In this document: in pieces, positions 2,506-21,332 of the stretch
How positions within the stretch are numbered: the stretch's first letter is position 1
How the letters are laid out: every line of letters begins with the position of its first letter
Virus record (IMG/VR): IMGVR_UViG_3300030104_004478
Span: 1-22,649 of that record
Source: a virus
Reading direction: 5' to 3' (one strand)
Length of the DNA: 22,649 bases
Translations under genes and position numbers: made by a program
The notes under the pieces: generated by a model
Database searches by the model: none
What the model was told of the DNA's origin: nothing
The model's input: the letters and a program-made list of their open reading frames with translations, nothing else

Positions 2506-2595
2506 ATGTCACACAAAGTATTAAAGAAGGTCGCTAATTATGTCTTCTATATTATACTTGGAAGAGTGTTAATCCTTCTACTGTTTAACACATAG
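2506..2595 (+). CDS. Possible membrane microprotein (29 aa)
   Basis: A 29-residue ORF with a basic N-terminus (MSHKVLKKVAN) and a hydrophobic remainder (YVFYIILGRVLILLLF) broken by one Arg. This fits a tiny membrane peptide. There is no clear Shine-Dalgarno sequence, and it starts 27 bases after the end of the coupled operon. The stop codon TAG lies inside the left arm of a perfect 12-base inverted repeat (2594-2605/2619-2630). It may be a real microprotein or chance coding in AT-rich DNA. Confidence 0.35.
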   Translation: MSHKVLKKVANYVFYIILGRVLILLLFNT

Positions 2596-2630
2596 TTTTC
2601 CACAGTTATTGTTAGTTTCTGTGGAAAACT
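2594..2630 (+). repeat. Perfect 12-base inverted repeat with DnaA-box-like arms
   Basis: AGTTTTCCACAG (2594-2605) and CTGTGGAAAACT (2619-2630) are exact reverse complements separated by 13 bases. Each arm contains TTTTCCACA, the cyanobacterial-type DnaA box. No T-run follows, so it is not a typical terminator, and the two arms could bind a dimeric or paired DNA-binding protein. Confidence 0.8.
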
Positions 2631-2655
2631 CGTAGAATAAGTGTTATTTTACCCT

Positions 2656-2663
2656 TATAAATA
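2656..2663 (+). promoter_or_regulatory. T4-type late promoter motif TATAAATA
   Basis: An exact TATAAATA, the T4 late promoter -10 element recognised with the gp55-like sigma factor. It sits within the gene-free DnaA-box region, about 300 bases before the next convincing start codon, so it may drive a leader or untranslated RNA or read through to the gene at 2968. Confidence 0.5.
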
Positions 2664-2790
2664 GGAAATTAAATATACTTATGCTTTCTAAACCTTTTCC
2701 ACAATGTTGTTAAAAACTTGATGTAATATGTGGAATAAGTGTTAATTAGTGATGAAATTGTGTGGATAAAGTGTTAATTTTGTAGTGATG

Positions 2791-2822
2791 TTAGCGAGCG
2801 TATTATAACACAACCTCGCTAA
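2791..2822 (+). repeat. Perfect 8-base inverted repeat TTAGCGAG/CTCGCTAA
   Basis: TTAGCGAG (2791-2798) and CTCGCTAA (2815-2822) are exact complements around a 16-base AT-rich loop. There is no T-run. On the minus strand the loop reads TATAAT, and TTGTAG lies 17 bases before it, so the hairpin also overlaps a possible leftward promoter. Confidence 0.6.
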
Positions 2823-2828
2823 AACTAC

Positions 2829-2856
2829 AACCCCCTCGTTAACATTTTGTGGGGTT
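2829..2856 (+). terminator. Possible terminator hairpin AACCCC/GGGGTT
   Basis: AACCCC (2829-2834) pairs with GGGGTT (2851-2856) around a 16-base loop. A loose T-rich tract (ATTACGTTTT) follows. The long loop and broken T-run make it weaker than the other terminators of the window. Confidence 0.35.
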
Positions 2857-2910
2857 ATTACGTTTTCCACATATACATCGAAGGACAGTCAAATTACCGT
2901 CCCCAGAGTA

Positions 2911-2967: not shown

Positions 2968-3141
2968 ATGGCAGTTTCTCACATTTACGGACTAAAGAGT
3001 AAGTATAGAATAACGCTAGAGATTGAAGCACTATGTGACTTTAATCCCCATCAGATTGACTTCCGTAAAGTATTACAATTGGAAGGTAATGAGCAAGTAG
3101 AAAGTATTATCGAAGATCTTGATAATCCTGACAGTTGGTAA
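2968..3141 (+). CDS. Small hypothetical protein (57 aa)
   Basis: The frame is open from a TTG at 2911, but that codon is the -35 box of a consensus promoter. The ATG at 2968, preceded by AGGAG (2953-2957), is therefore the better start. The 57-residue product begins MAVSHIYGLKSKYRITLEIE and has an acidic C-terminus (EQVESIIEDLDNPDSW) that probably forms a helix, with beta structure before it. The ITLEIEALCDFNPHQIDF segment resembles small single-domain phage proteins, but I cannot name a family. It is probably transcribed from its own host-type promoter together with the 42-residue gene at 3209, up to the terminator at 3352-3383. Confidence 0.7.
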   Translation: MAVSHIYGLKSKYRITLEIEALCDFNPHQIDFRKVLQLEGNEQVESIIEDLDNPDSW

Positions 3142-3942: not shown

Positions 3943-4710
3943 ATGGCAAAAGGTTTTACTGTTAAAGCCAATGCACCTAAACCCAAGAAGGAAGAATGGG
4001 ATTATGATGCAATTAAGGCAAGGATGAAAGGAAAGACAATTGTATTCTGTCTACCTGGTCGTGGATGTTCATTTATATTCTTAAAGAATTTTGTACAACT
4101 GTGCTTTGATATGGTACAGAATGGAATGAGTATTCAGATCTCACAGGATTACTCTTCTATGGTAAACTTTGCGAGATGTAAGTGTCTTGGAGCAAATGTA
4201 TTACGTGGACCGAAGCAGATACCTTGGGATGGAAAGTTAAAGTATGATTATCAGTTATGGATTGACTCGGATATAGTCTTTGACACACAGAAGTTTTGGC
4301 AGTTATGTGATCTTGCAGTACCTGCTGAAGGTGATGAAAGAGAGATTACAGGTGGTTGGTATGCAACAGAAGATGGCACGACTACCTCTGTAGCACACTG
4401 GTTAGAAGAAGAGGACTTCCGCAAGAACGGTGGAGTCATGAATCACGAAACTGTGGAGTCGATCAGTAAGCGTAAGAAACCATTCACTGTAGATTACACA
4501 GGTTTTGGGTGGGTTATGATAAAGAATGGAGTCTTTGAGAAACTTGACTACCCTTGGTTCGCTCCAAAGATGCAAGTCTTTGAGTCAGGGAGTGTTCAGG
4601 ACATGTGTGGAGAAGACGTATCGTTCTGTTTAGACGCAAAAGAGGCAGACTATGAGATTTGGTGTGATCCTCGTATCAGGGTTGGTCACGAAAAAACTCG
4701 TATAATCTAA
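3943..4710 (+). CDS. Glycosyltransferase-like protein (GT-A fold, DxD motif)
   Basis: A 255-residue soluble protein with features of GT-A glycosyltransferases. The Rossmann-like first part (KGKTIVFCLPGRGCSFIFLKN, around residues 29-49) is followed by the sequence WIDSDIVF, residues 106-113. Its D108-S109-D110 is the metal- and nucleotide-sugar-binding DxD motif. Near the end come GEDVSFC (E224, D225), the usual position of the catalytic acidic pair, and GHEK with H249, a typical metal-binding His. A basic N-terminal stretch (APKPKKEEW) precedes the domain. It probably transfers a sugar to DNA, a virion protein or a cell-surface molecule; the acceptor cannot be told. Its perfect host-type promoter suggests expression independent of the late operon. 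Related proteins occur in T4-like cyanophages. Confidence 0.75.
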   Translation: MAKGFTVKANAPKPKKEEWDYDAIKARMKGKTIVFCLPGRGCSFIFLKNFVQLCFDMVQNGMSIQISQDYSSMVNFARCKCLGANVLRGPKQIPWDGKLKYDYQLWIDSDIVFDTQKFWQLCDLAVPAEGDEREITGGWYATEDGTTTSVAHWLEEEDFRKNGGVMNHETVESISKRKKPFTVDYTGFGWVMIKNGVFEKLDYPWFAPKMQVFESGSVQDMCGEDVSFCLDAKEADYEIWCDPRIRVGHEKTRII

Positions 4711-5554: not shown

Positions 5555-7480
5555 ATGCCATTAGTTAATTTTTCTAATCTGGATTTTGACCAGATTAAGA
5601 CAACGCTTAAGGAATATCTTAAAGCGAATTCCAATTTCACTGACTATGACTTTGAGGGATCTAACCTTTCCTCAATTATTGATGTGTTGGCATACAATAC
5701 CTACATAACCTCTTATAATGCTAACATGATAAGCAATGAGGTTTTCATTGATAGTGCTACTTTGAGGGAAAATGTAGTCTCGCTGGCAAGAAATATAGGT
5801 TATGTACCAAGATCAAGGAAAGCAGCAACGTCATCTATAAGTTTTTTCGTAGATTGTTCTGGTGTTATACCAACTCCTTCTACTTTAACACTTAAAAAAG
5901 GTCCAATTGCTTCAAGTGAGGGTTCTTTTGGTGGTCAATCGTTTATTTTTTCAATTTTAGAAGATATTACGGTTCCTGTCAACGATGGAATTGCATATTT
6001 TGATGATATTATCATTTCTGAAGGAACATTATTGACTTCAAACTTCACTTTTTCTGGAAGAAACCCAAATCAGAAGTTTATTTTACCAAATAGTGGAATT
6101 GATACTGCATTATTATCAGTTACGGTGAAAGGAAATCAACAATCTACCACTTCTACAAAATATTCTACTCAAGATAGTCTTTTAGACATAAAATCTGACT
6201 CAAAAGTTTATTATTTACAAGAAATTGAAAATGAAAGGTATGAAATTTTCTTTGGAGATGGAATTTTTGGTCAAAAACTTGAAGAAGGCAATTTTATTAC
6301 AGTAAATTATATAACTTGTAGCGGAGATAGTGCAAATGGCGTAAATCAGTTTGCATTTTCTGGTCAATTATCTTATACACGTAATTCTATTGAGTATACA
6401 GTTACAACTGGCATATCTTTACTTACAACTGGAGTAACTGCTCAAGGTGGAGAGGTAATTGAGTCTGTAGATTCAGTTAAAAAGTTTGCACCACGCATTT
6501 ATGCCTCTCAAAATCGTGCTTTGACTGCAAATGACTATGAAACATTAATTCCTGCTAAAATTTATCCTGAAACAGAGTCAATTTCTGTCTTTGGTGGTGA
6601 AGAATTAGTTCCTCCACAGTTCGGTAAGGTCTTTATTAGCATAAAACCAAGAACTGGTGACTTTTTACCTAATTTGATCAAAGAAAATATCAAAATGAAG
6701 TTGAAAAAGTTTGCAGTTGCAGGAATTGTACCAGAAATTCTTGATTTGAAGTATCTTTTTATTGAAGTTGACTCAAAAGTGTATTATAACACTAATATGG
6801 CTCCTAGTTCAGAGTTTGTTTCGACATTAGTACAAGAAAATACAACAAAATATTCAGAATCTACTGAATTAAATCGTTATGGGGCAAGATTTAAGTATAG
6901 TAAGTTCTTATCTATCATTGATGACAGTAGTGAAGCAATAACTTCTAACATTACAACCGTTTTAATGAGAAGAGACCTTCGAGTTGCCCTTAATTCTTTT
7001 GCAGAATACCAAATTGGGTTTGGAAATGAGTTTTATATTAAGAGTATGGATGGTTATAATATTAAATCATGTGCATTTAAAACAACTGACTCAACAGATG
7101 ATGTTTATCTGTCAGATCTTCCTAATACAAATAGAGAAACTGGAACTTTATTCCTCTTTACCTTACCTAATCCTGGATCTACCAACCCTACTGTAATTAA
7201 GAGGAATGTTGGTAATATAAATTATAAAAAGGGTATAATAACACTTAACCCTATCAACATTATAGGTGGTAAAATAAAAGATGGGCAAACGATTGTTGAA
7301 TTGTCTGCTTGCCCTAAATCCAATGACGTGATTGGATTACAGGATCTTTATTTGCAACTAGATATTAGTAATAGTAATTTTGAAACTGTTGTTGATGAAA
7401 TTGCTTCTGGACTAGATCCTGCAGCATCTAATTATGTCGTAACCTCTAGCTACCATAACGGGAACTTAGTAAGATCATAA
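5555..7480 (+). CDS. 6: Baseplate wedge protein gp6 (baseplate J-like)
   Basis: A 641-residue baseplate wedge protein, close to T4 gp6 (660). The frame is open from 5489, but I place the start at the ATG at 5555: it follows the gp25 TAA after one base and gives the typical N-terminus MPLVNFSNLDFDQIKTTLKE. Supporting blocks are the LARNIGYVPRSRKAATS segment near residues 77-94, a hallmark of gp6/J-like proteins, and FFGDGIFGQKLEEGNFITVNY near 231-250. Gp6 forms the ring that holds the wedges together. The lack of a strong ribosome binding site and the one-base gap to gp25 suggest coupled translation. Confidence 0.92.
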   Translation: MPLVNFSNLDFDQIKTTLKEYLKANSNFTDYDFEGSNLSSIIDVLAYNTYITSYNANMISNEVFIDSATLRENVVSLARNIGYVPRSRKAATSSISFFVDCSGVIPTPSTLTLKKGPIASSEGSFGGQSFIFSILEDITVPVNDGIAYFDDIIISEGTLLTSNFTFSGRNPNQKFILPNSGIDTALLSVTVKGNQQSTTSTKYSTQDSLLDIKSDSKVYYLQEIENERYEIFFGDGIFGQKLEEGNFITVNYITCSGDSANGVNQFAFSGQLSYTRNSIEYTVTTGISLLTTGVTAQGGEVIESVDSVKKFAPRIYASQNRALTANDYETLIPAKIYPETESISVFGGEELVPPQFGKVFISIKPRTGDFLPNLIKENIKMKLKKFAVAGIVPEILDLKYLFIEVDSKVYYNTNMAPSSEFVSTLVQENTTKYSESTELNRYGARFKYSKFLSIIDDSSEAITSNITTVLMRRDLRVALNSFAEYQIGFGNEFYIKSMDGYNIKSCAFKTTDSTDDVYLSDLPNTNRETGTLFLFTLPNPGSTNPTVIKRNVGNINYKKGIITLNPINIIGGKIKDGQTIVELSACPKSNDVIGLQDLYLQLDISNSNFETVVDEIASGLDPAASNYVVTSSYHNGNLVRS

Positions 7481-7481
7481 A

Positions 7482-10400
7482 ATGTCAGAAAAAAGAATCC
7501 AATTTAGTAACATAGTACAAAATCAACTTCCTGTGTATACACGGGATGAATTTCCGTTAGTATCGGAATTCCTGAAATCTTACTATGAAGGACAGGAATA
7601 CCAAGGTGGACCTATTGATCTGGCACAAAATATTGATGAGTATGTGAAAGTTGATAACTTGACCAATCTTACAGGTCAGGTTGGATTGAAAACTGATATA
7701 ACCTTAAGTGATGAAACCATTGAAGTTGATATGGTTAATTTTCCTGCTGGAACGGAAGGTTTTCCAAAGTCTTATGGATTGATTAAAATTGATAGTGAGA
7801 TTATTACATATACTGGAATTACAACAACTGCATTCACTGGTTGTATCAGAGGTTTTTGTGGAATAACCTCTTATAAAGCAGAAACCAAGCCAGATGTATT
7901 GGTATTCAATTCAAGCACCTCTGAAGGGCATATAGCGGGGTCTAAGGTAGAGAATTTAAGTTCTTTGTTCCTCAATGAATTTCTATTAAAAACTAAAAAT
8001 CAATTATTGCCTGGTTTAGAGAATAGAAGTCTGTCTTCTAACTTAAATCAGAACATTTTCATTAAACAAGGAAAAGATTTTTATTTAAGTAAGGGTACTG
8101 ATAGATCTTTTGAAATTTTATTCAAAGCACTCTATGAAGAAGATGTAAGAATCGTTAAACCAAGAGATTTTCTCTTTACACCTTCTAATGCTAATTTTAA
8201 AATCACTAATGATCTTGTAGTTGAGGCAGTTGAAGGAGATCCTGTTGAATTAGAGAATTCTACATTATTTCAAGACAAGTATGACGATATTTCAGAAAGA
8301 GCATATGCACCAGTAACAAAAGTAGAACCAATTAATATTGGAACTGGAAAAACTTTCTATAAATTAAGTTTTGATGCTGGTTACAACAGAGATGTTAGAG
8401 TAGATGGTTCAATATATGGAACATTTGTTGTACATGATAAAACAAAGGTAATTGGAGCTGTTGCTACAGGTTCCACAACATTTAATGTAGATTCAACTGT
8501 TGGTTTTCCCAATTCTGGTGAATTAACTGTTGAGTATTCTGATGCAACCATAGGAATTGTTAGTTATACATCAAAATCTATAAATCAGTTCTTTGGAGTT
8601 TCTAATGTAATTGGTGATATTGTTGATGCTTCAAATGTTGGGATTAATACTTATACATATGGATCTTCTAATGTAGATCAATCAGAAATCAAAGTAAATA
8701 TTACTTCAGTTTTAAATAAACTCAACCTTCCAGACGATACACATAATTTTGCTATAAATGAAACTGCAAAAATTAAATCTTTAGGTGATAATGATACTAG
8801 TTTCAAAGCAAAGAACTGGTTCTATAATATTGCTCCTGTTTTCGAGGTTAGTGAGTTAGAAATCATTGATCCTAGTGATAATACTTACATGGTTCACTTC
8901 TTTGTGGATCATTCATTTAGAATAGGTGATAAGGCAGATTTAATTGACAATGCTGGTAACTTAAGACCTACATCTACTGTCATTGATGTAGATGGTGCAA
9001 GAAAAGTTACTATCAAAGGTCAAGGATTGATAGATTTAACATCTAGATATACTCTCCGAAGAAATATACTAAAAACACAATCAACTACATTCCCTGAAGC
9101 ATCTTTATACTCTACTAATGTCCAAAATCTATATGTAGATGGTTCAAAGTACTTGGTTGCCTCTACATCTATTCCAACTTACAGTTCACAACCATTAAAT
9201 TTAAACTCACAAACAATTACTTTTTCTGGCACTTTTGTTGGAGAGGAACTTCAGTTAGTTACAAGTGGAGATCATGGTTTCTATACTGGTGACGCTATTT
9301 ACTACTACCCTCAAAGAGTTTCTGAAGACTTTTTTGATGCAGGTGTATTGTCTACTAGAGAAACAATTAAATCTTCTTTATTTCCAGAAGATCTAGGTGT
9401 AATAGGTGCAGGTGAGATTGCTAAAAATGAAGGTCTCTATTTTGTTCAAAGAATTAATAGTTTAAAAATTAAATTAGCGAAAAGTAGAACTAATTTATCA
9501 AATTCTACATTCATTAAGTTAAATACTGCTGTTACAGTACAAGATAATAAGATAACACCTCATAAGTTTAAATTAAAAAGGTTAGAAGCACAAAATATTT
9601 TTAGAGAGATTGATTTACCTTCTAATGATGGTAATCATTATAAAACAACTCCTGGATTTACTGGTATTTTAATTAATGGTGTTGAAGTACTTAATTATAA
9701 GTCTCATAACTCAATTTACTATGGAAAAATAAATTCTATAGAGGTTATTTCTGGTGGTTCTAATTTTGATGTTCTAAATCCACCTAAATTGAATATTACT
9801 GATAATTTAGGAGTTGGTGCAACAGGTAATGTTGCTGTTTCTGGAGTTTTAAAAGAAATAAGAATTATTGATCCTGGATTTGATTATGTTGAAACACCAG
9901 AGATCAATATTTCAGGTGGAAATGGAAATAATGCAAAAGCATCTGTAAATACTAAATTAATTACACATAAAGTTAATTTTGACGCTTTAGCAAATGGTAG
10001 TGTTGATCTTAATACTAATATCATCGGATTTAGTACTTTCCATAAATTTAGAAATGCAGAAAGAGTAATTTACAAGTCTAATGGACAAAAAGGTATTGCG
10101 GGACTATCTACTGATTCTGAATATTATGCTTCTGTTATTACTAATAGCAGTGTAACATTACATCAATCTAAACAAGATGCTATTATCGGTATTAATACAA
10201 TTTCCTTAACAGATAATGGTATAGGAATTCAGACACTAGAATCTTTTGATAAAAAGACTGTAGTTGAAGCAATTAATGTTATTTCAGGTGGTTCAGGATA
10301 TTCTAATAAAGAGAAAACAATAACACCAGTTGGAATTAACACTTCTATTGATACTATAACATTACACAATCATTCATATCAATCTGGCGAGATAGTTAAG

Positions 10401-13400
10401 TACACTGCTACAGGAACTGCTGTAGGTGGTCTTACAAGTGGATCTAATTACTATGTAACTAAAATTGATGATGATAAATTTAGATTATCTAATTTAGGAT
10501 CAACTGATGAGCAAAAAACATTTTTCTTTGATACTAAACAATATGTTGATTTAACTTCTGTAGGAATTGGAACTCATATTTTTAATTATGAAGATATTTC
10601 AATTACAATATCGGGTAAAATTGGTATCAGCACTGCAGAGTTTGATGGAAGTCCTGATGAGATATTTGGTGCTAAAATTCAACCTATTGTTAGAGGATCT
10701 GTAACATCCATTGATTTATCTAATCAAGGTAGTAATTATGGTGACTCTGAAATTATTAATTTCAATAGAGAACCTAATGTTGAATTAAGTGCAGGTAAAA
10801 ATGCACAAATAAAAGCAGTTGTTAATAATGGACAAATTACAGAAATATTAATTCAAAATTCTGGTTCTAATTACAATTCACCACCTGACATTATACTTAG
10901 CGGTTCTGGAATTGGTTGTGTTCTTACACCAATTCTTGAGGATGGTAAATTAATAGAGGTTAGAGTAATTGAAGGTGGTATTGGATATGTTCAAGATACC
11001 ACAACATTAGCAGTTTCTGTTCCTGGTGATGGAGCACAATTTAGAGCACTTCTTCAGCAATGGAGAATTAATTTAGTTGAAAGGCATCTAAAAACCTTTA
11101 CAGGTGATGATGGATTTATTGCACATGAATTTAGTGAAAATAGAGGATTGCAATTCTCTCATTTATACGCTCCACGTAAATTAAGAGAATCTATTTTTGC
11201 AAGAAACCAAAGTGGTGATATTTTATATGGTAAAACTGATTTAATCAAATCTAATGGAACTGAAATCGTATCCACAGACCACTCTCCAATAATTGGTTGG
11301 GCATATGATGGTAATCCAATTTATGGTCCTTATGGTTACATAACCAAATCTGGTGGTGCTATTGCTCAAATGAGATCTGGTTATAAACTAGAATTGCAAG
11401 ATGGAAGACCATCAACTGGATTATATCCTGAAGGATTTTTTGTAGAAGATTATGTTCATAAACAATTAGATGATGACGCAGTTCTTGATGAAAATAATGG
11501 TAGATTTTGTTTTACACCAGAATTTCCAAAAGGAACATATGCTTATTTTGCAACTATCAATGATGGTCCTGCAGATTCAGCAGAGAATTTTAATGGTTTT
11601 AAAAGACCAGTATTCCCATATTTAATAGGTGATGGTTATCAATCAACACCTAATAATTTTAACTATGATGTTTTCTCAAACCAAAAAGATTATAAGTTAG
11701 ATAAAACAACATGGTTAAGAAATACACAACCATATAATTTAATAGAAACAAAGGAGGTTGTATACAAATATGCATTTATTCCTGATGATTTAAAACAAAC
11801 TATTGATGTCAGTTCAGTAACTCCTGGTAAAATTGAAAAAGTAGGTATCTCTTCAAGTGGAGATTTATACAAAGTTGGTGATACCATAGTATTTGGAGAA
11901 TCCAATACTAGTCGTAATCAAATAGCAGGGTTTGGAGCTGATATTGAAGTATCTAAAGTTTTAGGAAAAGAAGTTAGTAGTATTAGTGCTGCAAGCACAA
12001 CAATTACTGAAGTAGAAATATATCCTGCTGAAAATGGTTTTAATGGTCAATGGAATGTTATTAGTGATAATCCACATAATTTTAAATCAAATGAAATTAT
12101 TGTAATCTCTGGATTATCTACAACATCTTCTGGAATAGAAGGTGCATACAATGCTGGTATCACTACAGATACATTTGCAATGACTGGTATAGGGACAACT
12201 ACTGTTTCTGTAGATACTGCTGCTGTAACTGGATTTGTTACCTTCTTTAATCTTGGTGGTAATTTAAAAAATATCAAACCAAATGATATTCTTAAAGTTA
12301 ATGATGAAGAAGTAAAAGTATTGAATGTAGATGAAGAATTTTCTAGAGTTAGAGTTTTCAGAGCACAAAACGGTACAACAGGAACTGCACATACAGTAAC
12401 TGCAATTGTTAAACAAGATCCTCGTGTAATAACAATTAATGCAGGTATTAAAACAACATTTACTGCAAAAAGAAATACTGAATTATATTTCAATCCTATA
12501 GAATCAGTTTCTCAAGGAGTTGGTATTGGAAGCACACTTGTATTCAATAACATAGGTATTGGATTAAGCGAATTATTTGTTCCCACACGATCAATATTTT
12601 TCAAAAATCATAATTTAGAAACAGGTGATGAATTAACATATTCTACTAATGGTGGAAATGGTTTAAGTGTTGTTGATGGAACATCAGCATTATTACAGGA
12701 TGGTGAAAAATTATTTGCTGCCAAGATAACTGATAGTTTAATTGGTATTGCAACTGTAAGAGTAGGATTGGGTTCTACAGGTACATTTGTTGGTATAGCA
12801 AGTGCATTTAAAAATTCTACTATTTTAGCATTTACTGGTATTGGAACAGGAGTTCAACATAGTCTTAAGACTAACTACAAACCAATTACAGGTGATGTTA
12901 CTAGAAATAAAGTAAATGTATCAACAGGTGATTCTCATGGATTAGTTCAGGGAAATACTGTTGATATTAATATTAATCCTGGAGTTACTACTTCTATTGT
13001 TGTTAAGTATAATGATTTTAATAGAAGATTAATATTAGATCCTAGAACATTTGTAGCATTAGATATTGATAATAATAATAATTCTATTGAAATAAAAGAT
13101 CATAGATTTAGTACTGGAGATAAAGTAATTTGTAATATTGATTCAAATACAAGTGATCTTGTTAATAATAAAATTTATTATATTGTAAGAATTGATAGTA
13201 ATAATATTAAATTATCTACTTCACATTATAATTCTGTATTACTCAATCCAGTCACTATTATTATTACTGGTACAGATTCAGGATCTTTCTCTGCAGTTAA
13301 TCCTCATGTAGATCTCTTTAAAGATTCTACTGTAGAATTTGATGTTTCTGATCCTTCATTAGGATATGTTAGTCAGGGAAGTTCTTACTCTGCATTTGAA

Positions 13401-16400
13401 TTTAATTTTTATACAGATCAAAACTTTACAGATCTATGGGAAAAAACTGAAGATAGTGTACAATTTGAAGTTAAAAAGACTGGTAAAATTGGTGTCTCTG
13501 CTGATGCCAAAGTATCACTTACTGTTAATAAAAATATTCCTCAAAATTTATTTTATAGACTTAAACCGATATTTGAAAATAATTTACCACTAGTTAAAAA
13601 AGAAATTGTTGTAGATGATGAGGTGTCTAGTGGAAGTCAAGTTGAAGTTTTTGAAAGTAGATTTAATGGAGAACATCCTATTTTTGTTGCTGTTGGTTCA
13701 ACTAATACCTTTAGTTACACTTTAAAACAGTTCCCAGAGAAAACATCTTATTCTACTTTAACTTCTCTTATAGAATATACTACTGATGCTAAAACTGCTC
13801 TTGGTCCAGTTGCAGATTTCCATATAAAGAATGGTGGACAAAACTACTATTCATTACCTGGAATTACTACAATAACAACTGAATTTGGTAGTAATGCAAT
13901 TATAAGTGTTGGAAGTAGTAGTATTGGTCGTATCAAGAAAACGAAAATACAAAATATTGGTTTCAATTTCCCATCTGATACTACATTAAGACCAACTGTG
14001 GCATTACCACAAGTAATGAAGATGAAGTCTTTGGCATCTATTGGATCTATTGGAATTGCTTCAGTAGGAAAAGGATATGCAGTTGCTCCAACTTTATTAA
14101 TGTTTGATGGAGAAACCAAAAAACAAATTAAAGATATTGATTTACAATTTACATTAGGTGATTCTCAAGTTCAAATTCTTAATAATACTACAGGTATAAA
14201 TCCTGTCACTCCTATTATTATTCCTACAGGAAATTCTAATGGTGTTGGTATAAGCACGGTTGGTTTTAATACAACTACTAAAGATGTAACACTTACATTA
14301 TCTGTAGGATTTAGTACTGAAAATTCATTCCCATTTGAGGTTGATGATAAAGTTTTAGTTGAAAATGTTAGTATTGGTATCGGATCTACAGGAAAAGGAT
14401 TTAACTCTGCTGAATATGATTATAAGTTATTTACAGTAACTGCTGTTGATGCTAATTTAGGTGGAATTGGAATTGTTACTTACAGTTTAGCAGATGAACT
14501 TGTTGGAGGAGAGTTTCCTGGTACATATAATCCATTTAATTCTGCTGCTGCAAGAATAATACCACAAAAATATTTCCCATCATTTAGTGTCAATTTATCT
14601 TCTAATAACTATTTGGTTGGAGAAACTGTTACATCAAAGTCTAAAGAAGGAAAAGATATATCTGGACAAGTAGAAACATGGGATGTTAAGAATGAAATCC
14701 TAGTAATTTCTGGTACTGAAGGATTTGCAGAAGGTGAAATTATTAAAGGAGATTCTTCTAATACTCAAGGTATTGCTTCTTCAATATCATCATACAAATC
14801 AGATTTAACTATTGATGCATTTTCTAAAGTAGAGAATGGTTGGGAGACTGATTCAGGATTCCTGAATATAACACAACAAAGATTGCAAGATAATGATTAC
14901 TATCAAAACTTCTCTTACTCTTTAAGATCTGCCATTTCATTTAATGTTTGGGATGATGTCGTAAGTACTTTAAATCATACTCTAGGATATAAAAAATTCT
15001 CTGATTATCAATTAGATTCAACAGCAACAGATGCTTCATCTATGATTGTTGGTTTGACAACAGCAACTACAGAAGTTGATCAAGTTCATGATTTAGTTGG
15101 TGTTGGAAATTTAAATACTTTTAGTGATTTTGATTTAGTTAAAGAAAATTCATTAATTGTTCCTGGTAGTATTCTTTCAGATGAAATAATATTCTCTAGC
15201 AGAATATTGCAAGATTTTGAAGAATCTATAGGAAACAGAGTTTTAACAATTGATGATATGAGTGGATCATTCAATAGCAATCCACGATCAACTCCTTTCA
15301 GTGTTGTTGAAACATTTAAGTTAGCAGAACATAGAGCACAAAAATATATTACTTTTGTCAGAGACAAGAGATTCTATGGTCAAAGACAAATCATGATTGT
15401 TGATTTGATACATGATGGTTCATTTGGATATATTCAACAATACGGAAGAGCCGAAACAGTTTATGATCAAGGTTCATTTGATTTCTCAATTGTTGGATCT
15501 GAAGGACAATTGTTATTCTATCCAACTAGATCAGCAGTCAATGATTATGATATTGTTGCACTTTCATATAATCTTGATGATAACCTTCTAGGAATAGGAA
15601 ATACTTCTGTAGGTACTGCATTAATAGATTCTCATAGTGTAAATGTTCCCAAAGCAAATCCATCTACCAATATCGTTTCTATCGCTAATACATACAGGTC
15701 TGCAAAAATACTTGTAGAGGTTACTGCAGATAGTGAGTATGTTGGATTATATGATGAATTTGGAATGGTAGAACTTAATTTGGTTCATGATGGAACTGAA
15801 GTTGATATGTTAGATTATGCAGAGATGACAACTTCATTAAACAAATCTAATGTAAGTGGTTTTGGTACATTCTCTGCGTATATCTCTGGTTCAGATGTGA
15901 AGGTAGATTTCCATCCTAATGCAATTGGAATAGGCACTACAGCAGTCGTTAACGCCATTGTAGTAGCACAATCTAATGAATCTACTACATCAGAGTCTTT
16001 CGTTGATTTAAAGCATGCTAGACTAGAAAGTAGGTCTACAAACATAGCTGCTTCAGGATCTCCAACTCCACAAGTAGTTGGTGATTATCCTGATGATTAT
16101 GATGCTGCCTATTTTGTAATTCAAGTTTCTGATACAAGTAATGGTGAATATGGAATATCAGAATTAATAGTTATTGATGATTATGATATAACTTTTGGAA
16201 CAGGTCAGACTTATGATACTGATGAATACGCAGTAGTTACTACATCTGGTGGACAAGGCATTACTGGATTAGGAACTTTCTATACTGGCATTTCTACAAA
16301 TAATATTGTTGATAGTGGTGGTTCAGTTGGAATAGCAGCAACTACACAATTAATATTCACACCTCTTCCTAATGTTGCTACAAACGTTAAAGTCTTTATG

Positions 16401-19400
16401 AATGCATTTAGACATCAAGATGATGCTCAAAATCAAATAGACTTTAATAATTCATCTATACAGGTGAGATCCTCTGATTATACTGGAACTGATAGAGATA
16501 TCAAGAGAGCGTTTAATTTAACACATAATCAAGATACTATCTTTGAAAGAAGTTTTGAAGGTAACGATTCTACAATTGTAGATGTTGATGAAGATACTAT
16601 TGAATTGCCTAATCACTTCTTTGTTAGTGGTGAAAAGATTAATTATGTTTATGCTGGTGCAGGAACTACACAGGCGATAGGTATTGCGAATACAAATGGA
16701 TTTGTTGGTATAGGATTTACTAATAAACTACCTAATGAAGTATTTGCAATTAAGGTAGATGACAATAAGATTAAAGTTACTGATAGTGCAAGAAAAGCAC
16801 TCCTTTCAGTACCTGAATCGGTTACTTTAACTAACGTTGGTATTGGAACATCACATAGATTTGTATCTACAAATGCTAATGCTAAAGTTTTACTTTGTTT
16901 AGATAATATCGTTCAATCACCTATTGTATCAACTGCAGTAACAACAACTCTTGCCAAAGAACTCTTTACTACAGATGATCTTGTAAAACTCAGTGGAATA
17001 ACATCGATATTTGGTGGTGATCTTTTAAGAATAAATGAAGAGATATTAAAGATTGAATCTGTAGGAGTTGGAAGCACTAACGTTCTACGAGTTCGTAGAC
17101 AATGGATGGGAACTAACCTATCAGGTCATTCCACTGATTCCTTGGTAACTAAAGTCAATGGTAACTATAATATTGTAGAGAATGTTCTCAATTTTGTTGA
17201 AGCACCTTATGGTCAGATTCCTTTAAGCACAACAACCAATCCACCAGATTCCAGAGACTGGACTGGAATATCTACAAGTTCTAGTTTCCAAGGAAGATCA
17301 TTCATGAGATCTGGTGTTCCTAATACAGTTAATGATACGTATTATAAGAATGTTGTATTTGATGATATTTCTTCAGAGTTCAATGGAATCAATAAAGATT
17401 TTGATTTAGAATCTGATGGTAATAATGTCACAGGAATTGCAACTGAAAATGCTGTCATTTTAATCAATGACGTATTCCAAGGACCAATCCTTAACTATTC
17501 ATTAAATGAAAATCTAGGAATAACAAGTATACAGTTTACTGGTGCTGCATCATCTACAACAGATGCAAATGTAACTTCATTGCCTCTTGGTGGTGTTATC
17601 CTATCTGTTGGATCTACAGAAGGAAATGGGTATCAACCACTAGTTGCTGCTGGAGGAACTGCAGTGGTATCTGCTGGAGGAACTATTAGTTCTATTAGTA
17701 TTGGAAATACTGGATCTGGTTATCGTTCTGGTGCTCAAACAGTTGGAGTTTCAGTACAGCAAAGAGATGTAGAAGGAACATCAGTTACTTCAATAGGAAC
17801 TGCATCTGTCTCTAATGGACATATAACTGGTGTTGCAGTTACAAACTGGAACGCATTCTATAAACCTAGAGATATTAGACAAGCTTCTTATACTCATACA
17901 ACTGGTGTAACAACTATTACAACTGCTACACCTCATGGATTGTCACTAGGTGATGAAGTTAAACTATCTGGTATTGCATTTACATGCACATACTCTAGTG
18001 CTGCTTCAAGAGATGTTCAATTTGCTACTTATAATAACACAAATGGAACTATGACGGTTACTACCGCAAGTTCTCATGGATTGAAAGTGGGTAAAGATGT
18101 AATTCTAACGGGACTAGCATTTACTTGTGGATTAGATAATGGTGTTTCAGAACACATCTATCCTAGAAACAGAGACAGATTCTTCGATACTTCTATTTCT
18201 ATTGGATCTACAACTAATAATTCTATAACTGTAAATGTAACTGCAGCAAAAGATTTAGATCAATATGCTCATACCTTTGTAAGTGCATCTGCAGATGCGG
18301 TTGTTACTGGCGGTACTTATAATCATGAATTTATAGGAACTGCAGATAATGCAATCATATCTGGTGGTGCTTACAATCATACTTTTGCTAGTGCTACTAC
18401 AGGTGGTGTAACAGTTGCAGGTATTGGTACTACTACTCCAACCAGTGCAACTTATGATGCAAACACAGGTGACATGGTATTGACTATTAATGGTCATGGA
18501 GCAATAGTTGGTTCTGCCGTAAGTTTTGCTATTGGTGCAATCACATTTACTTGTGATATGGATAATAATTCTACTAATCATCCATATCCTCGTGCAACTG
18601 ATCCAATTGTATCCATTGGTTCTACAGTTATTACTTCCTCAACTAATAATACAATCACTGTTAATGTTGGAACATCTAAAACTGTAGGTCATAATGTTAC
18701 TGATGCTGATTATAATCCTGCAACTGGAACTTTAGTACTAACAAGTCCTAATCATGGTTTGAAAGCAGGAGTATCTATCAGGATACCTGACAATGCTTTG
18801 ACATTTACTTGTGATATGGATGCACATAGCACTAAACACACATATCCAAGAAGTACTGATCCAATATCTAATACTGCTGTTTCTATTGCATCAACAACTG
18901 AAAATACTCTTACTATTAATGTTGGAACCTCTACTGAAGTTAAGTACAATGTAAGTGCTGCTTCTTATAATGCATCAACAGGTCAATTAGATTTAACAAT
19001 TGGTTCTCATAATTTAACATCAGGAACTAGTATCAAGATAGCAAAAGAATCATTAGTATTCACATGCTCTAAAGATGGTAATGCAACCGAGCACAAATAT
19101 CCAAGAGGCGGTGATCCTGGATATAATGGTTTAGAAGTTATAGGTGTCAGCAGTCCTACTAAATTTGATGTAAATGTTGGAGTATCAACTGTTCCTACAT
19201 TCTATAAGTCTGGTGGTAAAGTTCAAGGAGTAATCATAGCACCTAGAGATAATAATAATTCTGCAAGCGGAACAGATCCTGCTGCAGGTGGAACTAATGT
19301 ATTAGGAATTATTGATAATCATACATTTACTATTAATAGTGGAATATCTACTACACCACACTTCTATGCTAGAGGAGGAACTGTAGAAAAACCATTAGAT

Positions 19401-21332
19401 GTAATAATTGATGAACCTCTATCTTACACAAATATTCCTCTTGCTTATAGTTCTGATTCTGTAAGTGGAGTTGGTTCAGGTGCATCCGTTGATGTTGTAG
19501 TTGGACAAGGTTCAAGTATAGTTGACTTTTCTATAACGAATACTGGATATGGTTTTGGTATAGGTGAAATTTTAACACTTCCTATCGGAGGAGCAACTGG
19601 AATACCTACAACTTCATCTTACAAAGAATTCCAACTTACTATAGATGAAGTATTTACTGATGAGTTTACAGGATGGACTCTAGGAACTTTACAACCACTG
19701 GATACACCACAAGGTGAATTTGATGGTGACACAAGAACTTTCCAGTTAAAATTAAATAATGATATTATTTCAATTAGAGCTGCTAAAGGATCCAAGATTG
19801 ATGTTCAAGATGTCATTCTTGTATTTGTAAATGATATTCTTCAGATTCCTGGTAAAGGATATACATTTACTGGTGGAAGTCTCATAACATTTACAGAACC
19901 ACCTAAAGCAGGTGATACTTGTAAGATTATCTTCTATAAAGGAAGTGGTGGTATTGATGTTAAATCAAGAGATATTATTGAAACTGTTAAAATAGGTGAT
20001 GATTTACAAATAACATATGATCCTTCTAAAGGACAGGAATCTTGGTTACAAGAAAATGAAAGATCTGTATTGAGAGTTGATTCTACTGATATTGTTACTA
20101 CTAATCCATACTTTGGACCAGGAAATACTGAAGATGAAACTTTAGTCAGACCAGTTAGTTGGAGTAAGCAAACTGAAGATAGAATTATTAATGATCTTCA
20201 AGTTGGTAAAGATAGGGAGTTATATGAACCAAATATATTCCCTGCAGCAAATGTCTTAAAAACTGTTGGAATTGGATCAACCACAATTTATGTTGAGAGT
20301 GTTAGACCATTCTTTGATCCTAAAAATGAAAATTCAGATGAGAGCATTCGCACAACTTTACAGGATAAGGTTACTATCGTTAGTCAGGATCTTAAAGTTG
20401 GTGCAACTGTCTCTGCTTCTATATCAGGAAATTCAGTCTCTTCTATCACAGTTTCTGATGGAGGAAAAGGATATACATCTGCACCATCAGTTTCTATACA
20501 AACTCCAGTAGGATTAGGTTCTACTGCTACTGCTACTGCTGCAATAACCAACGGATCTGTGACAAGTATCACAGTAACATCTGGTGGAACAGGTTATACA
20601 TCTACTCCACAAGTCCTTGTTGATCCACCTTCATTAATTTCAGAAACTAATGATGTTCTTTCTTATAATGGAGATTCTGGAACTGTTGTTGGATTTGGAA
20701 CAACAGTAGTATCAAATATAGACAAATTAATTTTTGACCTTTACATACCACAAGATTCATTCTTAAGAGACACTGATATTGTAGGTACAGCAACAACATT
20801 AAGTGGTATTAGTATTGGTGATTACTTTGTAGTTAGCAATTCAAATATTGGATTTGCACAAACTAATATAGTATCAAGAGCACTTGATAATACTATAGTT
20901 GCAACAGGTAGATCCTTCTTTGATAATGTTTATCAAGTAGAGTCTACATCTGTTGTTAGTGTTGCCAATACTAATATAGGAATATCTACTGTAGGAACTG
21001 CATTAACAAACGTTATTAGAGTTCAAAGTAAAATAAGTGGAATATCTACATTTACTTTCTCATCAAATTCAATATACTTTGATTCTACAAATTATACCTT
21101 TGACAATCAAAATTCTGATATTGGAGGTGGTTCTAATACAGGTGCAGGATATACTGGTGGATTTATTAATAGACCATTCTTGGGTAACTTTAGTTGGGGT
21201 AGAATAGAACTTCAAGGTAGATCTGAACTTAATGAATATTCATTCTTTGGTCAGAACGGAGTTCTTGGAATTGGAACTGGGTCTCTTGTAACAAGAACTA
21301 ATGGATTAAGATCTAAAAATTATGATAGTTAA
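7482..21332 (+). CDS. Giant multi-repeat virion structural protein (4,616 aa)
   Basis: This is the dominant gene of the window. It starts one base after gp6 with the N-terminus MSEKRIQFSNIVQNQLPVYT, which I recall from large structural proteins that follow gp6 in T4-like cyanophages. Domains in order: an N-terminal region with FPxSYGLIxIDSEIITYTG-type units (about 90-125; relatives near 340 and 3200); GGxGY-type beta repeats (about 757-1175, 2116-2200, 3400, 4010 and 4320-4370); a YHYH-like domain (about 1205-1390) with WAYDGNPIYGPYGY at 1273-1286; several HxF-TGD...GIGTHxF units; a SELIVIDDYDITFG-type beta region (about 2740-2970); five FTC...HxYPR units (3484-3910) with a short 18-residue repeat among them (3597-3650); and a QTEDRIINDLQVGKDRELYEP block near 4232-4252. 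There is no membrane segment or signal peptide. The probable role is a baseplate-anchored or fibre-like host-contact structure. The domain reading is from motifs only. Confidence 0.85.
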   Translation: MSEKRIQFSNIVQNQLPVYTRDEFPLVSEFLKSYYEGQEYQGGPIDLAQNIDEYVKVDNLTNLTGQVGLKTDITLSDETIEVDMVNFPAGTEGFPKSYGLIKIDSEIITYTGITTTAFTGCIRGFCGITSYKAETKPDVLVFNSSTSEGHIAGSKVENLSSLFLNEFLLKTKNQLLPGLENRSLSSNLNQNIFIKQGKDFYLSKGTDRSFEILFKALYEEDVRIVKPRDFLFTPSNANFKITNDLVVEAVEGDPVELENSTLFQDKYDDISERAYAPVTKVEPINIGTGKTFYKLSFDAGYNRDVRVDGSIYGTFVVHDKTKVIGAVATGSTTFNVDSTVGFPNSGELTVEYSDATIGIVSYTSKSINQFFGVSNVIGDIVDASNVGINTYTYGSSNVDQSEIKVNITSVLNKLNLPDDTHNFAINETAKIKSLGDNDTSFKAKNWFYNIAPVFEVSELEIIDPSDNTYMVHFFVDHSFRIGDKADLIDNAGNLRPTSTVIDVDGARKVTIKGQGLIDLTSRYTLRRNILKTQSTTFPEASLYSTNVQNLYVDGSKYLVASTSIPTYSSQPLNLNSQTITFSGTFVGEELQLVTSGDHGFYTGDAIYYYPQRVSEDFFDAGVLSTRETIKSSLFPEDLGVIGAGEIAKNEGLYFVQRINSLKIKLAKSRTNLSNSTFIKLNTAVTVQDNKITPHKFKLKRLEAQNIFREIDLPSNDGNHYKTTPGFTGILINGVEVLNYKSHNSIYYGKINSIEVISGGSNFDVLNPPKLNITDNLGVGATGNVAVSGVLKEIRIIDPGFDYVETPEINISGGNGNNAKASVNTKLITHKVNFDALANGSVDLNTNIIGFSTFHKFRNAERVIYKSNGQKGIAGLSTDSEYYASVITNSSVTLHQSKQDAIIGINTISLTDNGIGIQTLESFDKKTVVEAINVISGGSGYSNKEKTITPVGINTSIDTITLHNHSYQSGEIVKYTATGTAVGGLTSGSNYYVTKIDDDKFRLSNLGSTDEQKTFFFDTKQYVDLTSVGIGTHIFNYEDISITISGKIGISTAEFDGSPDEIFGAKIQPIVRGSVTSIDLSNQGSNYGDSEIINFNREPNVELSAGKNAQIKAVVNNGQITEILIQNSGSNYNSPPDIILSGSGIGCVLTPILEDGKLIEVRVIEGGIGYVQDTTTLAVSVPGDGAQFRALLQQWRINLVERHLKTFTGDDGFIAHEFSENRGLQFSHLYAPRKLRESIFARNQSGDILYGKTDLIKSNGTEIVSTDHSPIIGWAYDGNPIYGPYGYITKSGGAIAQMRSGYKLELQDGRPSTGLYPEGFFVEDYVHKQLDDDAVLDENNGRFCFTPEFPKGTYAYFATINDGPADSAENFNGFKRPVFPYLIGDGYQSTPNNFNYDVFSNQKDYKLDKTTWLRNTQPYNLIETKEVVYKYAFIPDDLKQTIDVSSVTPGKIEKVGISSSGDLYKVGDTIVFGESNTSRNQIAGFGADIEVSKVLGKEVSSISAASTTITEVEIYPAENGFNGQWNVISDNPHNFKSNEIIVISGLSTTSSGIEGAYNAGITTDTFAMTGIGTTTVSVDTAAVTGFVTFFNLGGNLKNIKPNDILKVNDEEVKVLNVDEEFSRVRVFRAQNGTTGTAHTVTAIVKQDPRVITINAGIKTTFTAKRNTELYFNPIESVSQGVGIGSTLVFNNIGIGLSELFVPTRSIFFKNHNLETGDELTYSTNGGNGLSVVDGTSALLQDGEKLFAAKITDSLIGIATVRVGLGSTGTFVGIASAFKNSTILAFTGIGTGVQHSLKTNYKPITGDVTRNKVNVSTGDSHGLVQGNTVDININPGVTTSIVVKYNDFNRRLILDPRTFVALDIDNNNNSIEIKDHRFSTGDKVICNIDSNTSDLVNNKIYYIVRIDSNNIKLSTSHYNSVLLNPVTIIITGTDSGSFSAVNPHVDLFKDSTVEFDVSDPSLGYVSQGSSYSAFEFNFYTDQNFTDLWEKTEDSVQFEVKKTGKIGVSADAKVSLTVNKNIPQNLFYRLKPIFENNLPLVKKEIVVDDEVSSGSQVEVFESRFNGEHPIFVAVGSTNTFSYTLKQFPEKTSYSTLTSLIEYTTDAKTALGPVADFHIKNGGQNYYSLPGITTITTEFGSNAIISVGSSSIGRIKKTKIQNIGFNFPSDTTLRPTVALPQVMKMKSLASIGSIGIASVGKGYAVAPTLLMFDGETKKQIKDIDLQFTLGDSQVQILNNTTGINPVTPIIIPTGNSNGVGISTVGFNTTTKDVTLTLSVGFSTENSFPFEVDDKVLVENVSIGIGSTGKGFNSAEYDYKLFTVTAVDANLGGIGIVTYSLADELVGGEFPGTYNPFNSAAARIIPQKYFPSFSVNLSSNNYLVGETVTSKSKEGKDISGQVETWDVKNEILVISGTEGFAEGEIIKGDSSNTQGIASSISSYKSDLTIDAFSKVENGWETDSGFLNITQQRLQDNDYYQNFSYSLRSAISFNVWDDVVSTLNHTLGYKKFSDYQLDSTATDASSMIVGLTTATTEVDQVHDLVGVGNLNTFSDFDLVKENSLIVPGSILSDEIIFSSRILQDFEESIGNRVLTIDDMSGSFNSNPRSTPFSVVETFKLAEHRAQKYITFVRDKRFYGQRQIMIVDLIHDGSFGYIQQYGRAETVYDQGSFDFSIVGSEGQLLFYPTRSAVNDYDIVALSYNLDDNLLGIGNTSVGTALIDSHSVNVPKANPSTNIVSIANTYRSAKILVEVTADSEYVGLYDEFGMVELNLVHDGTEVDMLDYAEMTTSLNKSNVSGFGTFSAYISGSDVKVDFHPNAIGIGTTAVVNAIVVAQSNESTTSESFVDLKHARLESRSTNIAASGSPTPQVVGDYPDDYDAAYFVIQVSDTSNGEYGISELIVIDDYDITFGTGQTYDTDEYAVVTTSGGQGITGLGTFYTGISTNNIVDSGGSVGIAATTQLIFTPLPNVATNVKVFMNAFRHQDDAQNQIDFNNSSIQVRSSDYTGTDRDIKRAFNLTHNQDTIFERSFEGNDSTIVDVDEDTIELPNHFFVSGEKINYVYAGAGTTQAIGIANTNGFVGIGFTNKLPNEVFAIKVDDNKIKVTDSARKALLSVPESVTLTNVGIGTSHRFVSTNANAKVLLCLDNIVQSPIVSTAVTTTLAKELFTTDDLVKLSGITSIFGGDLLRINEEILKIESVGVGSTNVLRVRRQWMGTNLSGHSTDSLVTKVNGNYNIVENVLNFVEAPYGQIPLSTTTNPPDSRDWTGISTSSSFQGRSFMRSGVPNTVNDTYYKNVVFDDISSEFNGINKDFDLESDGNNVTGIATENAVILINDVFQGPILNYSLNENLGITSIQFTGAASSTTDANVTSLPLGGVILSVGSTEGNGYQPLVAAGGTAVVSAGGTISSISIGNTGSGYRSGAQTVGVSVQQRDVEGTSVTSIGTASVSNGHITGVAVTNWNAFYKPRDIRQASYTHTTGVTTITTATPHGLSLGDEVKLSGIAFTCTYSSAASRDVQFATYNNTNGTMTVTTASSHGLKVGKDVILTGLAFTCGLDNGVSEHIYPRNRDRFFDTSISIGSTTNNSITVNVTAAKDLDQYAHTFVSASADAVVTGGTYNHEFIGTADNAIISGGAYNHTFASATTGGVTVAGIGTTTPTSATYDANTGDMVLTINGHGAIVGSAVSFAIGAITFTCDMDNNSTNHPYPRATDPIVSIGSTVITSSTNNTITVNVGTSKTVGHNVTDADYNPATGTLVLTSPNHGLKAGVSIRIPDNALTFTCDMDAHSTKHTYPRSTDPISNTAVSIASTTENTLTINVGTSTEVKYNVSAASYNASTGQLDLTIGSHNLTSGTSIKIAKESLVFTCSKDGNATEHKYPRGGDPGYNGLEVIGVSSPTKFDVNVGVSTVPTFYKSGGKVQGVIIAPRDNNNSASGTDPAAGGTNVLGIIDNHTFTINSGISTTPHFYARGGTVEKPLDVIIDEPLSYTNIPLAYSSDSVSGVGSGASVDVVVGQGSSIVDFSITNTGYGFGIGEILTLPIGGATGIPTTSSYKEFQLTIDEVFTDEFTGWTLGTLQPLDTPQGEFDGDTRTFQLKLNNDIISIRAAKGSKIDVQDVILVFVNDILQIPGKGYTFTGGSLITFTEPPKAGDTCKIIFYKGSGGIDVKSRDIIETVKIGDDLQITYDPSKGQESWLQENERSVLRVDSTDIVTTNPYFGPGNTEDETLVRPVSWSKQTEDRIINDLQVGKDRELYEPNIFPAANVLKTVGIGSTTIYVESVRPFFDPKNENSDESIRTTLQDKVTIVSQDLKVGATVSASISGNSVSSITVSDGGKGYTSAPSVSIQTPVGLGSTATATAAITNGSVTSITVTSGGTGYTSTPQVLVDPPSLISETNDVLSYNGDSGTVVGFGTTVVSNIDKLIFDLYIPQDSFLRDTDIVGTATTLSGISIGDYFVVSNSNIGFAQTNIVSRALDNTIVATGRSFFDNVYQVESTSVVSVANTNIGISTVGTALTNVIRVQSKISGISTFTFSSNSIYFDSTNYTFDNQNSDIGGGSNTGAGYTGGFINRPFLGNFSWGRIELQGRSELNEYSFFGQNGVLGIGTGSLVTRTNGLRSKNYDS
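17930..19200 (+). repeat. Five FTC...HxYPR protein repeats
   Basis: Within the giant gene, the words FTC at residues 3500, 3547, 3689, 3775 and 3860 each follow a (H)GL..G..V/I..... segment. In all but the first they are followed by a D...T.H.YPR..DP-type block. Spacings are 47, 142, 86 and 85 residues. The 142-residue gap is lengthened by the inserted 18-residue repeat. The first unit is truncated. The nucleotide copies have diverged, so the duplication is old. Confidence 0.85.
18270..18431 (+). repeat. Three 54-base tandem units (18-residue HxF...GG repeat)
   Basis: Unit starts lie at 18270, 18324 and 18378, exactly 54 bases apart. Each encodes H(T/E)F followed by about ten small residues, then GG and an aromatic-Asn pair in the first two units (for example GGTYN, GGAYN). 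The third unit decays at its end. This is a short beta-strand repeat also seen, as I recall, in other cyanophage structural proteins. Confidence 0.85.

Follow-up and report, generated by a model that had tools for sequence, protein, structure and literature searches.

A conserved cluster of DnaA-box words beside a leftward promoter in T4-like cyanophages: a candidate replication origin

The window analysed here is the whole 22,649-base stretch of the IMG/VR record IMGVR_UViG_3300030104_004478. Between positions 2213 and 2911 it holds no open reading frame of at least 50 residues, only short ones, in line with the gene-free stretch reported in a preliminary description of this DNA. Downstream of gp6, a single ORF of 4616 residues (7482-21332) occupies the place that the giant baseplate wedge initiator has in Bellamy. 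In Syn9 and S-H38 an SF2 DNA helicase gene is on one side of the corresponding site and gp25 on the other. The features of the site are listed below (L numbers are our handles for loci compared with the window).

2596..2604, plus strand: DnaA box TTTTCCACA, exact word; position and spacing kept in L012, L013, L006 and L020
2620..2628, minus strand: DnaA box TTTTCCACA, exact word; kept in L012, L013, L006 and L020
2633..2692, no strand: AT-rich stretch of low stability, candidate unwinding element; ranks tenth from the bottom in stability among 60-bp stretches of the window
2695..2703, plus strand: DnaA box TTTTCCACA, exact word; kept in L011, L012, L013, L006 and L020
2729..2737, minus strand: one-mismatch DnaA box TATTCCACA; exact TTTTCCACA in L011, L012 and L013
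2753..2801, minus strand: conserved 5' leader of a predicted leftward transcript, with the blocks GCTAAGATCACAA and ACATTTA
2761..2769, minus strand: DnaA box TTATCCACA, word match; not kept in L012 and L013
2802..2830, minus strand: leftward sigma70-type promoter; -35 TTGTAG at 2830-2825, 17-bp spacer, extended -10 TGtTATAAT ending at 2802
2863..2871, plus strand: DnaA box TTTTCCACA, across the leftward promoter from the other boxes; kept in L011, L012 and L013, absent from L006 and L020
2911..2940, plus strand: rightward sigma70-type promoter TTGACA-N18-TATAAT, a 12/12 match, divergent from the leftward promoter
2968..3141, plus strand: conserved cyanophage gene of 57 residues (phrog_12516, unknown function), marking the right border of the site

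The six box words of the preliminary description were all recovered at their positions; the TTATTCCACA that it gave at 2729-2738 on the minus strand is, when read as a 9-mer, the one-mismatch box TATTCCACA. The boxes at 2596..2604 and 2620..2628 form an inverted pair, GTTTTCCACAG-N13-CTGTGGAAAAC. The word AAGTGTTA, said to accompany every minus-strand box, is present in three copies (2639, 2737 and 2769), one after each. Five copies of TTTTCCACA were observed in the window against 0.45 expected, and a comparison with shuffled sequence, as had been proposed, gave five copies in none of 100 shuffles. The fifth copy, at 1231 on the plus strand, lies outside the cluster. This box (1231-1239) is found just past the Kyano_Gp96 gene (ORF 850-1197), and in ACG-2014d a box pair (37684, 37695) is located 32 bp past the homologous gene; a smaller additional box site may follow Kyano_Gp96.

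The cyanobacterial DnaA box given in the literature is TTTTCCACA, to which DnaA of cyanobacteria binds in vitro; domain IV of this protein shows cooperative binding to paired boxes that are 2 nt apart (PMC4674748). The assignment of the word to the cyanobacterial form of the box agrees with the published consensus, and also with the boxes upstream of host dnaN. There, most low-GC Cyanobiaceae genomes carry TTTTCCACA, NTTTCCACA or TATTCCACA, and in most high-GC genomes these words are absent from the retrieved stretch. Of 41 host-family genomes, including some incomplete ones, 33 have DnaA; a phage-encoded DnaA was looked for in 15 phage records and not found. A literature search of an open library found no paper connecting cyanophages with DnaA boxes. 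The absence of a DnaA gene from the phage records checked would suit a decoy, with the many copies of the phage site drawing off host DnaA so that no new rounds of host replication begin. So would the density of the phage cluster, with six boxes in the window and up to eight in some relatives, compared with one to four upstream of host dnaN. However, two or three boxes, the number at the site in many isolates, are few for a sink, and a decoy leaves unexplained the fixed coupling of the boxes to the leftward promoter and the AT-rich region that is described below. We consider this explanation very doubtful.

To follow the boxes among relatives, 80 IMG/VR loci were retrieved with the 255-residue downstream protein (window 3943-4710) as the query. 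In many of these loci the corresponding intergenic region, ahead of the 57-residue gene, holds three to seven boxes. L012 and L013, which are closely related to the window, retain five box positions with identical spacings of 24, 75, 34 and 134 bp, and in the closest relatives identity to the window is 93-94% for the box columns, compared with 73-80% for the rest of 2596-2871. The alignment across related cyanophages that had been suggested as a check thus shows box positions that are kept while the spacers diverge. At least two exact boxes within 150 bp are present in 14 of the 32 loci or genomes that have at least 2.4 kb of upstream sequence, a count in which S-SM2 is entered twice (as L092 and as its genome) and in which the six genomes include some chosen after whole-genome box counts.

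Since the window is only a fragment, counts per whole genome were taken from complete relatives. The isolates were picked from a gp25 tblastn list, consisting mostly of enterobacterial phages, which was used solely for this purpose. TTWTCCACA occurs four to nine times per 177-197 kb genome in S-PM2, Syn9, S-SM2, ACG-2014d, S-H38 and P-TIM68. In these six complete Kyanoviridae genomes all box pairs less than 100 bp apart fall at a single site, approximately 2-8 kb upstream of gp25 and hence upstream of the gp25/gp6 baseplate genes. From scattered boxes, 0.006-0.037 pairs per genome would be expected; in ACG-2014d a second pair lies about 0.9 kb from the first. The word is therefore not equally dense elsewhere, and the one site per genome is what a DnaA-dependent origin would call for. 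In S-PM2 (NC_006820, L405) tRNA genes are annotated within 17414-19333, two of them overlapping boxes; ARAGORN makes no prediction there, tRNAs over the boxes were rejected, and the annotation may be misplaced.

No exact-box cluster was found in the whole genomes of the well-studied isolates P-SSM2, P-HM2, S-CAM9 and ACG-2014f, and in Bellamy and SynMITS9220M01 exact boxes are absent from the site while the promoter and leader are retained. Overall, exact boxes are missing from about half of the anchored loci or lineages, with the promoter and leader still in place. Other repeats are seen at several loci. TTGAGAAT/ATTCTCAA, which may resemble a cyanobacterial Fur box, is repeated downstream of the leftward promoter in the box-less loci L078, L081, L095, L418, L427 and L449. 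Upstream of the 57-residue gene, L037, L067, L072 and L069 have repeat units of about 26 bp (TTCGTGATTAGATAAGATTCGTATAG), and L030 has a run of 10-bp units (CTTATAAATG) at approximately 2890-2960.

Comparison of the regions flanking the boxes exposed a conserved element on the minus strand (window 2836-2753) that was not part of the preliminary description. It comprises the leftward promoter and its leader, and this core is matched in the window by nhmmer with an E value of 2e-13. One copy was detected in each of five complete genomes; the S-H38 core is below the detection threshold and was spotted only by eye. The family form of the promoter is TTGACA-N17-TANANT, with TTGACA in 47 and the 17-bp spacer in 50 of 62 non-redundant relatives, and the commonest -10 forms among these are TATAAT, TATACT, TAGACT and TAGAAT. 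The promoter scores better than mononucleotide shuffles at p<0.05 in 89% of the non-redundant cases. The -35 of the window itself is weak (TTGTAG, 3/6), and the promoter falls below the threshold of a simple scan. It is oriented against the neighbouring genes, and transcription from it would enter the DNA of lowest stability, which holds the boxes. A hairpin, GCGAG...CTCGC (~2787-2820), was also considered; its arms are lost in distant relatives, whereas the leftward promoter is conserved in them.

The association of promoter and boxes was assessed by two independent scans of IMG/VR, in which loci were chosen by a box pair alone or by the core alone. Among the matches listed in the box-pair scan, 58 of 119 loci have cyanophage neighbours and 42 have a core, which in all 42 is no more than 600 bp from a box. 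In the core-alone scan, 17 of 42 non-redundant loci carry at least two boxes 45-300 bp downstream. Box density in these loci is 3.63 per kb just downstream of the core and 0.012 per kb elsewhere, a 309-fold enrichment, and the reversed-word control is flat, with no downstream enrichment. The boxes are most numerous at 50-250 bp downstream from the -35, with more of them on the transcript strand than on the other (100 versus 44); in P-TIM68 they lie on the opposite side of the core. Together with the shuffles and the confinement of pairs to one site in six genomes, this enrichment rules out chance or a composition effect, for which only the AT-richness of the region could be cited and which we regard as negligible. 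The box cluster in the window is confirmed as real, well above chance and conserved.

The strand bias and the position of the box peak past the -35 would also be expected if the site controlled an early noncoding RNA from the leftward promoter that regulates phage or host genes, with DnaA acting as a roadblock or terminator that couples the RNA to the DnaA level or the cell-cycle stage. DnaA-dependent termination is known from work on E. coli. Such an RNA would fit the wider conservation of the promoter and leader compared with the boxes, as well as the lack of any visible ORF or minus-strand gene after the leftward promoter in the window. However, the leader has no consensus RNA structure (mean z of -0.07) and no Rfam match, which speaks against a structured noncoding RNA, and a roadblock needs neither an AT-rich minimum nor helical phasing. 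We therefore judge RNA-mediated control to be possible but unlikely.

Helical phasing is evident in the box geometry. In a set of 18 same-strand pairs that was not selected by spacing, neighbours are 11, 12, 20, 21, 22 or 42 bp apart, with a Rayleigh p of ~4e-7 at 10.5 bp, a value that is optimistic because the pairs are partly related by descent. Spacings of 11-12 or 20-22 bp place the boxes on one face of the helix and, as they recur across relatives, would permit cooperative DnaA binding. For pairs on opposite strands the preferred spacings are 13-14 and 23-25 bp. Many relatives have evenly spaced direct repeats, unlike the window, in which the spacings are wider and the strands mixed. Dense arrays of up to 12 DnaA boxes, often 11-12 bp apart, were also seen in three viral contigs for which cyanophage neighbours were not found (L185 6893-7125, L210 3936-3988 and L158 6064-6180); L185 encodes a protein that by eye resembles DnaB helicase.

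The geometry also bears on whether a phage protein, rather than DnaA, binds the repeats as an initiator or regulator, with the likeness to DnaA boxes being convergent or inherited. The other repeated words at the same place in box-less relatives speak for this, but the letters are those of the host DnaA consensus down to its minor variants TTATCCACA and TATTCCACA, and the 11-bp spacing is the arrangement that is bound cooperatively by cyanobacterial DnaA domain IV (PMC4674748). A phage protein in this role seems quite unlikely to us.

Duplex stability follows the same layout. Averaged over 67-69 relatives, a stable peak at the promoter is followed by a minimum 75-225 bp downstream of the -35, which is the place that 2633..2692 occupies in the window, and box density is greatest where stability is lowest. 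The boxes are thus accompanied by an AT-rich region with a candidate unwinding role. A late-promoter-like TATAAATA (2656-2663) lies within this stretch of the window.

Taken together, the elements present are one locus per genome, a leftward sigma70 promoter with its leader, an AT-rich region just downstream and, for roughly half of the lineages, several host DnaA boxes within this region that share one face of the helix. We propose, with a probability of roughly 0.5 and from sequence comparison, that the site is a transcript-primed replication origin of T4-like cyanophages (Kyanoviridae) that is assisted by host DnaA. Unmodified host RNA polymerase would make the leftward RNA soon after infection; host DnaA would bind the phased boxes cooperatively and help to open the AT-rich region or hold it open; the RNA, possibly as an R-loop, would prime the first fork; and the phage T4-type replisome would take this fork over, before recombination-dependent replication. 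More tentatively, a single theta origin could dominate, with host DnaA on phased boxes opening the DNA there and the antisense early transcript acting as primer; a lytic phage of the T4 type would then rely on the initiator of its host, and lineages would swap the recognition word and keep the promoter.

Of the original suggestion of an origin or DnaA trap, the origin is a good reading of conserved, phased boxes at one site per genome, but the accompanying expectation for cumulative GC skew was not borne out: neither GC skew nor third-position skew switches at the site. T4-type genomes with one-directional genes may lack such a signal. A point against a DnaA-assisted origin is that phages of the T4 type replicate with a replisome of their own and prime replication by recombination. 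The retention of promoter and leader in box-less relatives further indicates that DnaA is not a universal requirement and is at most a lineage-specific helper. A single theta origin has been predicted for Syn9, according to a review citing that prediction (PMC2984593). The viable long-passage mutant S-PM2d carries a deletion of 5,799-15,339 (PMC4503421) and so retains the cluster at 19.2 kb, which is neutral for the proposed origin. T4-like cyanophages are among the most abundant viruses of the ocean, and as a candidate for the start of their replication the comparison provides a precisely located, conserved site, a few hundred bases long, in the laboratory phages Syn9 (at ~52.6 kb), S-PM2 (~19.3 kb) and S-SM2 (~58.1 kb). 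Use of DnaA would couple phage replication to a host protein that is itself connected with the cell cycle of the host.

The site resembles the cyanobacterial oriC upstream of dnaN in its 9-mer, its minor variants and its AT-rich setting. It differs in that the boxes in the phages are usually phased and more densely packed, that a conserved leftward promoter is present and that neither dnaA nor dnaN is nearby. Origins of phage P1 and of the plasmids F and pSC101 have host DnaA boxes near an AT-rich region, together with their own Rep protein and iterons. The cyanophage site shares with them an extrachromosomal replicon and the boxes near AT-rich DNA, whereas no Rep protein with iterons was identified here and the replicon belongs to a lytic phage of the T4 type, which brings a replisome of its own. 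T4 oriF, or ori(uvsY), combines a promoter with an AT-rich unwinding element and an R-loop (PMC3016281). The cyanophage site likewise has a promoter followed by an AT-rich stretch, but it has DnaA boxes and another gene order, and its R-loop is putative. The proximity of uvsY to gene 25, which adjoin in the T4-type phage RB14, and of the cyanophage site to gp25 is a suggestive likeness only. The oriF promoter is a MotA-dependent middle promoter, whereas the cyanophage element is a sigma70 -35/-10 promoter; cyanomyoviruses are without motA (PMC2984593). T4 oriE has an early promoter and evenly spaced 12-nt iterons, with RepEA and RepEB (PMC3016281). The cyanophage site differs from oriE in that its repeats are host DnaA boxes, its promoter runs opposite to almost every gene and it lies upstream of gp25/gp6. 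Like oriE, it places a predicted early-mode host sigma70 promoter of a T4-type phage next to a cluster of short repeats, which are evenly spaced in many relatives but of mixed orientation in the window.
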